Assembly (NCBI GenBank): GCA_013822425.1
Contig: PNKL01000002.1
Coordinates: forward strand, 1 to 64,000
Length of the DNA stretch: 64,000 bases
Direction: 5' to 3'
Source: Gemmatimonas sp.
Lineage (GTDB): Bacteria > Gemmatimonadota > Gemmatimonadetes > Gemmatimonadales > Gemmatimonadaceae
Shown here: piece after piece, positions 61,041-61,562 of the stretch
How positions within the stretch are numbered: the first letter of the stretch is position 1
Layout: each line of letters opens with the position of its first letter
Made by a program: the position numbers and the translations under genes
The notes under the pieces: model-generated
The model's input: only the letters and a program-made list of their open reading frames with translations
What the model was told of the DNA's origin: nothing
Databases searched by the model: none

Positions 61041-61174
61041 TGCGGCTTTCCGTCCACGGTGCGCGATACGGCGCTGATACGGAGCGTCGAACCTGACCTG
61101 CACCAGACGATGGGCATGGTTGCGTTCGCCGAGCGAAGAACGTCAGAGGCAATCGTGTCGGCCAGAAAACAGAA

Positions 61175-61207
61175 ACGGGGCAGCGCCAGTGAAAGCGCCT
61201 GCCCCGT
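61175..61207 (-). terminator. Intrinsic terminator downstream of the tRNA gene
   Basis: On the minus strand ACGGGGCAGGCGC pairs with GCGCTGCCCCGT (one bulge), and TTTCTGTTTTC follows. It lies 92 bases past the tRNA 3' end, so it most likely ends the tRNA transcript; it could also serve the convergent hydratase gene. Confidence 0.75.
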
Positions 61208-61272
61208 GTCCGTTGCGAACTTCGTTCCCTAACGAGGACTTAAAGTTGCGTGAAACGGCGCGTTTGGTCAAT

Positions 61273-61300
61273 GGCGACTCGACCGTGGCGACTCGACCGT
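61273..61300. repeat. 14-bp tandem duplication at the tRNA 3' end
   Basis: GGCGACTCGACCGT occurs twice without gap (61273-61286, 61287-61300). The second copy ends at the discriminator base of the tRNA. Confidence 0.85.
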
Positions 61301-61383
61301 GCTCGGACCGGGAATCGAACCCGGACTCCCGTTAGGAAACGCGGTTCGCAGCCGCGCGCGTCTACCAGTTCCGCCACCCGAGC
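61300..61383 (-). tRNA. Class II (leucine-type) tRNA with anticodon GCG (Arg codon CGC)
   Basis: All 84 bases fold: acceptor GCTCGGG/TCCGAGC with discriminator A, D-arm GCGGAACTGGTAGACGC (near-identical to bacterial tRNA-Leu), anticodon stem CGCGG/CCGCG with loop CTGCGAA, variable arm TTTCC-TAAC-GGGAG, and T-arm CCGGG-TTCGATT-CCCGG. The long variable arm and D-arm are those of tRNA-Leu. The anticodon at 34-36 is GCG, which reads arginine CGC/CGU. No CCA is encoded. A terminator follows at 61175-61207, suggesting it is transcribed. Isotype is therefore ambiguous: leucine body, arginine anticodon. Confidence 0.88.
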
Positions 61384-61562
61384 CGGGCCCCGCACCATTC
61401 GTGCAAGAGGGCGACGCGCGCACTGCGCTGCACGCGCTACGAGTCGGGAGCGAACATAGGACAGGCCCTTGCCGGGCCCAGCATCGAATTCTCGCACGCG
61501 CCATCGACTTCACGCGCAGCAGTCGTGATTGCCGGCGGACAGCGACAGGGCCTGCGCTCTTC

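Follow-up and report, generated by a model that had tools for sequence, protein, structure and literature searches.

In type VIII toxin-antitoxin systems, to which we take SdsR-RyeA and CreTA to belong, both partners are RNAs, one toxic and one protective, as is putatively the case in the module described here. CreTA works through Cascade, which its antitoxic RNA directs to the toxin gene for repression (PMC9458426). In contrast, the putative toxin of the present module is a full tRNA, and its putative antitoxin pairs with the anticodon arm of that tRNA. Type I toxin-antitoxin systems also resemble the module, having an adjacent antisense small RNA with its own promoter that is expected to be labile, but their target is a toxin-encoding mRNA, whereas the module's target is a tRNA and no peptide is involved. 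The tRNA itself has two parallels. Nematode nev-tRNAs accept leucine and combine a long variable arm with non-Leu anticodons; however, they are eukaryotic, carry mainly Gly CCC and Ile UAU anticodons, and have no antisense partner mentioned in the accessible part of the source (PMC4300185). The tRNA-ProX of Streptomyces and other bacteria likewise puts foreign anticodons on the body recognized by one synthetase, but this is a Pro body, often encoded beside ProRSx, and the portion of the report available to us mentions no antisense RNA (PMC10365949). Finally, the leader of the module's tRNA is reminiscent of a T-box riboswitch, in which a hairpin loop presents a codon to an anticodon. Unlike a T-box, this leader precedes a tRNA gene, and no attenuator is seen before the tRNA. 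In Rfam, the T-box covariance model gave no match, and the leader and the small RNA matched no known RNA family. We know of no earlier description of an antisense RNA dedicated to a tRNA. Full-text searches of open PMC papers, and Rfam, gave no description of the module as a whole, and its novelty is stated within that scope.

The window (the whole stretch of 64,000 nucleotides analysed here, from Gemmatimonas sp.) contains one such module. Its two-RNA architecture, a Leu-shaped tRNA followed by an antisense RNA matched to it, is practically certain, and its appearance is that of a switch or toxin-antitoxin made of RNA only, not described before and based on a mistranslating tRNA. The elements are as follows, in the direction of transcription:

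61453..61485, minus strand: predicted tRNA promoter GATGCT-N21-TATGTT, by the family consensus GATGAC-N21-YANNNT
61384..61446, minus strand: leader at the 5' end of the tRNA transcript; 16 loci of the GCG/GTG class conserve it
61414..61438, minus strand: leader hairpin 1, a covarying stem whose loop carries CGCAG, complementary to the anticodon loop
61387..61413, minus strand: leader hairpin 2, by consensus structure
61300..61383, minus strand: type II tRNA of leucine layout with A73, by ARAGORN, Rfam and isotype profiles
61347-61349, minus strand: anticodon GCG of this tRNA, within the loop CTGCGAA
61272..61299, minus strand: trailer directly after the tRNA 3' end, a perfect 14-nt tandem repeat found by repeat search
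61243..61271, minus strand: sigma70-like promoter of the antisense RNA, TTGACC-17-CAACTT, comparable in position and spacing in most module loci
61214..61236, minus strand: antisense segment, by inverted repeat, with 0 of 300 shuffles as good
61166..61205, minus strand: intrinsic terminator, by inverted repeat, at which the antisense RNA ends, as would tRNA transcripts that read through

The initial annotation, made from the letters alone, had proposed a leucine-type tRNA with a GCG anticodon at this locus, and this is confirmed by independent tools. ARAGORN calls a tRNA with anticodon GCG at 61299-61383 of the minus strand, and Rfam RF00005 matches 61300-61383 with 53.1 bits (E 1.9e-9). Isotype profiles, built from normal tRNAs of the same genome and its relatives (those for Arg and Ser from three sequences each), score it at 46.3 bits for Leu, 6.6 for Ala and 2.5 for Ser, with no match for Arg. 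It was reported that E. coli LeuRS does not read the anticodon, A73, A14, A15-U48, G18G19 and A20a being crucial instead (PMC9976931). The sequence of the window tRNA has a long variable arm, A14, A15, G18G19, U20 A20a, U48 and A73, that is, every E. coli LeuRS element tested; Leu anticodons have A35 with G or A at 36, and here there is GCG. Given this leucine identity outside the anticodon, LeuRS should charge the tRNA. The genome has 41 tRNA matches, including ordinary tRNAs for Leu (GAG, CAG, TAG, TAA) and for Arg (ACG, CCG, CCT). Since the normal Arg tRNAs are present, the GCG tRNA is dispensable for reading CGC.

A terminator had also been ascribed to the tRNA itself. The terminator at 61166-61205, about 95 nt past the tRNA, instead ends a separate small RNA, predicted to have its own promoter, that is antisense to the tRNA. 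In the antisense segment, 21 of 23 nt (two as G-U) pair with the anticodon loop, the 3' anticodon stem and the variable arm, and the same inverted repeat was recovered independently by repeat search. Among all the genome's tRNAs, the best partner of the antisense RNA is its own tRNA, and the cofold of the two RNAs is predicted at -86.6 kcal/mol, against about -72.9 kcal/mol apart. The -10 box of the antisense promoter in the window (CAACTT) is weak. No terminator is seen between the tRNA and the antisense RNA in the window, so read-through transcripts would carry the antisense segment in cis; in the minimum-energy fold of such a transcript, this segment pairs with the tRNA and the cloverleaf is broken. 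The tandem repeat of the trailer is represented by a single similar copy in related loci.

Similar tRNAs were sought with a pattern describing a Leu-shaped D arm followed by an anticodon with a base other than A at 35. Matches came from 20 of 179 genomes in the window's own taxonomic family and from 27 of 395 drawn from the phylum, and a version for NAC/NAT anticodons matched in 8 of 288 genomes of the order; the reversed pattern, used as a control, gave no matches. A scan of about 85,000 species with the GCG/GTG form gave 16 matches, 14 of them in Gemmatimonadota assemblies. According to the initial annotation, presence in this one assembly only would count against its reading; Leu-shaped GCG tRNAs are found in about a dozen other Gemmatimonadota genomes. 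Our module list comprises 43 non-identical loci from Gemmatimonadota, which are related and do not represent independent events; despite this kinship, the stems differ from locus to locus. One of the 14 Gemmatimonadota matches, locus L117, shares its module with G009, which is a congener of the window genome; this places the window in that phylum. Ten different non-Leu anticodons occur on the Leu-shaped body: GCG (12 loci), CGC (8), CAC (7), GTG (4), GGC (4), GAC (3), GCC (2), GTC (1), CGG (1) and GGT (1). All 43 have G or C at position 34 and read C- or G-ending codons; of the 10 codon types targeted, 8 rank first for their amino acid in the window's genes, or nearly so. Among the 41 readable module tRNAs, the LeuRS elements are kept almost without exception (A73 and A14-A15 in 41 of 41, U48 in 40 of 41). 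In 8 of the same 41, for example L038, L040, L046 and L078, the acceptor stem ends in G1-U72.

Upstream of the tRNAs, GATGAC, with 5 or 6 of 6 matches and a YANNNT box, is present at 17 of 43 module loci compared with 2 of 67 normal tRNAs; the window promoter has 4 of 6 matches. From the different promoters, we infer that the tRNA and the antisense RNA are under separate control. In the GCG/GTG class, the loop of hairpin 1 is CGCAG where the anticodon is GCG and CACAG where it is GTG, each complementary to the anticodon loop. Over all classes, leader-anticodon complementarity is weak, yet stronger than with other anticodon types (paired test p 2e-4, for loci that are not independent). Across the 16 GCG/GTG loci, compensatory changes are found in 32 of 43 predicted pairs of the cloverleaf and leader hairpins, which shows that the tRNA fold is maintained; a dead relic is unlikely given the compensated cloverleaf pairs in relatives. 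The tree of these 16 loci is too unresolved for counting anticodon switches. Visual inspection suggested a closing helix that joins the 5' end of the leader to the tRNA trailer, but it was hardly better than swapped pairs and was dropped.

An antisense segment of 12 to 28 nt, directed against the anticodon arm of the adjacent tRNA, is present downstream in 40 of the 43 loci. It covers the anticodon plus the variable arm in the GTG class and in the window, and usually starts a few bases from the -10 box of TTGACN-17-YANNNT, with a poorer promoter fit in some loci. Against 300 dinucleotide shuffles per locus, the match was unequalled in 34 loci; in the six others, no more than 8 shuffles did as well. 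When partners were swapped among the 40 loci, the segment's own tRNA was the best in 37 and the second best in the other three, with a median ungapped score of 19.0 for own tRNAs and 9.9 for others. This score replaced a swap in which duplex energy was computed for the entire downstream region; there, the own tRNA was best in 24 of the 32 loci listed, a less clear outcome because terminators add pairing. In genomes with two modules, each antisense segment prefers its own tRNA; the preference is clear in five of six pairs, whereas in the sixth it is narrow in one direction. In G441, one of the two-module genomes, the margin is small (16.1 versus 15.2). Of 65 tRNAs treated as normal, two outdid all their shuffles, namely L056, whose match is weak (score 12.9), and L063 (score 18.1), which is itself a module outside the 43-locus list. 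No antisense segment of the module kind was seen at 80 viral loci with Leu-shaped off-anticodon tRNAs (L118-L197), or at the Domibacillus and alphaproteobacterial matches. Chance complementarity is rejected on the basis of the shuffles, the swaps, and the normal and phage controls. Viral Leu-shaped tRNAs with non-Leu anticodons, matched in at least 120 stretches, include the stop-reading TTA, CTA and TCA and come without an antisense RNA.

At L081 and L245, the tRNA is broken and the antisense segment is gone too, which would be expected of a segment that has a use only as long as its tRNA is live. This simple fit fails in two places: L079 has an apparently intact tRNA (GCC) and no good antisense match, and L243 retains the antisense segment beside a tRNA with a damaged T arm. 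The L079 tRNA is followed by a tandem of two antisense-like small RNA units, neither of which matches it; they look like partners of other anticodons and are perhaps orphan antitoxins.

Taken together, these data argue, with somewhat better than even confidence on our part, for a Leu-charged mistranslating tRNA that is silenced by a dedicated antisense RNA in an RNA-only, toxin-antitoxin-like arrangement. The first RNA, having full leucine identity outside the anticodon, would be charged with leucine by LeuRS and, when free, would place Leu at Arg codons (CGC) proteome-wide. The second would be transcribed from a housekeeping-type promoter of its own as a small RNA of about 70 nt. Its 5' end would pair with the anticodon arm of the matching tRNA (in the window also with the variable arm), so that the anticodon is hidden and the cloverleaf pulled open; read-through transcripts would allow this segment to do so in cis. 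The tRNA promoter differs from that of the antisense RNA and is probably conditional. Presumably, a stable toxic tRNA is held in check by a short-lived antisense RNA, and the pair may move between intergenic sites. A regulated mistranslating tRNA, one of the options offered by the initial annotation, is thus the one that fits best, its regulation being supported by the dedicated antisense RNA and not by a terminator. The combination of G or C at 34 with mostly commonest codons suits a poison better than fine tuning, which favours an RNA-only toxin-antitoxin; for this role of the pair, we see the case as balanced. Toxicity does not follow automatically from a wrong anticodon on a Leu-shaped tRNA: nev-tRNAs are leucylated in vitro yet give no detectable mistranslation (PMC4300185).

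The pair could also serve programmed mistranslation as a stress response, with the antisense RNA acting as a regulator and not as an antitoxin. We consider this unlikely, but it deserves attention. The GATGAC-N21 upstream element is unusual and unlike normal tRNA promoters, a leader hairpin loop that holds the decoded codon could sense the tRNA, and there is a precedent in tRNA-ProX of Streptomyces and other bacteria, reported to improve antibiotic resistance (PMC10365949). Such a response fits less well, however, with targets that are mostly the commonest codons, with a sporadic distribution (20 of 179 family genomes) in which sites and anticodons vary, and with the lack of a dedicated synthetase gene adjoining the window module. 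Strong and specific pairing would also be expected if the tRNA were a decoy or sponge titrating an antisense RNA with another target, or a bait for anticodon nucleases. This is quite improbable: the matched sequence varies by locus and tracks the local tRNA stem, making a common third target unlikely, and the conserved LeuRS elements would be superfluous.

The retention of LeuRS identity while the anticodon changes might instead point to a non-translational leucine donor for a tRNA-dependent transferase, with the anticodon drifting freely. The anticodons are non-random, however, all 43 having G or C at 34 and fitting common codons, and the five window neighbours (by Pfam, an enoyl-CoA hydratase (ECH), an Lrp-type regulator, a Cys/Met PLP enzyme, and PaaA/PaaC) and the flanking genes viewed at other loci, which by eye looked unrelated to one another, offer little for this reading, to which we give very little weight. 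As for the shifted isotype and charging by ArgRS raised in the initial annotation, a tRNA-Arg with an acquired long variable arm would account for C35, also an ArgRS element; the main element of bacterial ArgRS is A20 (PMC9976931). The Arg tRNAs of the same genome have A20 and the window tRNA has U20, its Leu profile is ahead by about 40 bits, and sister modules combine this body with His, Ala, Val, Gly, Asp, Thr and Pro anticodons. An ArgRS-charged or Arg-derived tRNA is rejected on the profile and the missing A20, and we attach next to no probability to it.

Eight congeners keep the order of the ECH, Lrp-type regulator and Cys/Met enzyme genes with no tRNA at the junction, which measures about 520 bp in the window and is short in most of the eight. 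This presence/absence site could also reflect loss in the relatives. Among the five Pfam-scanned window neighbours, there is no synthetase gene and nothing of the CRISPR/cas kind, whereas CreTA has an antitoxin RNA that resembles a CRISPR repeat and is linked to a CRISPR-Cas locus. There is an even chance, in our judgement, that these loci form a new class of RNA-only addiction or defence modules in Gemmatimonadota, in which a Leu-charged tRNA toxin directed at common codons is opposed by an anticodon-arm antisense antitoxin, and in which the anticodon varies in concert with the antisense segment and, in one class, with the leader loop, which would keep modules of one genome mostly insulated from each other. 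If this is true, a tRNA itself can be a toxin, and a silenced genetic element can carry a violation of the genetic code; tRNA control and switchable mistranslation could then be studied on about 40 natural tRNA-antisense pairs.

Ser-shaped off-anticodon tRNAs were absent from 99 family genomes, apart from one odd tRNA of the window's own genome. On contig C14 of that genome (C14:60800-60886; L035, L248), a Ser-shaped type II tRNA has the loop CTGATAA and therefore the anticodon GAT (Ile). It has a 2-71 mismatch, is followed by a terminator-like hairpin, and shows no antisense partner; perhaps it is a decayed tRNA-Ser(GGA).
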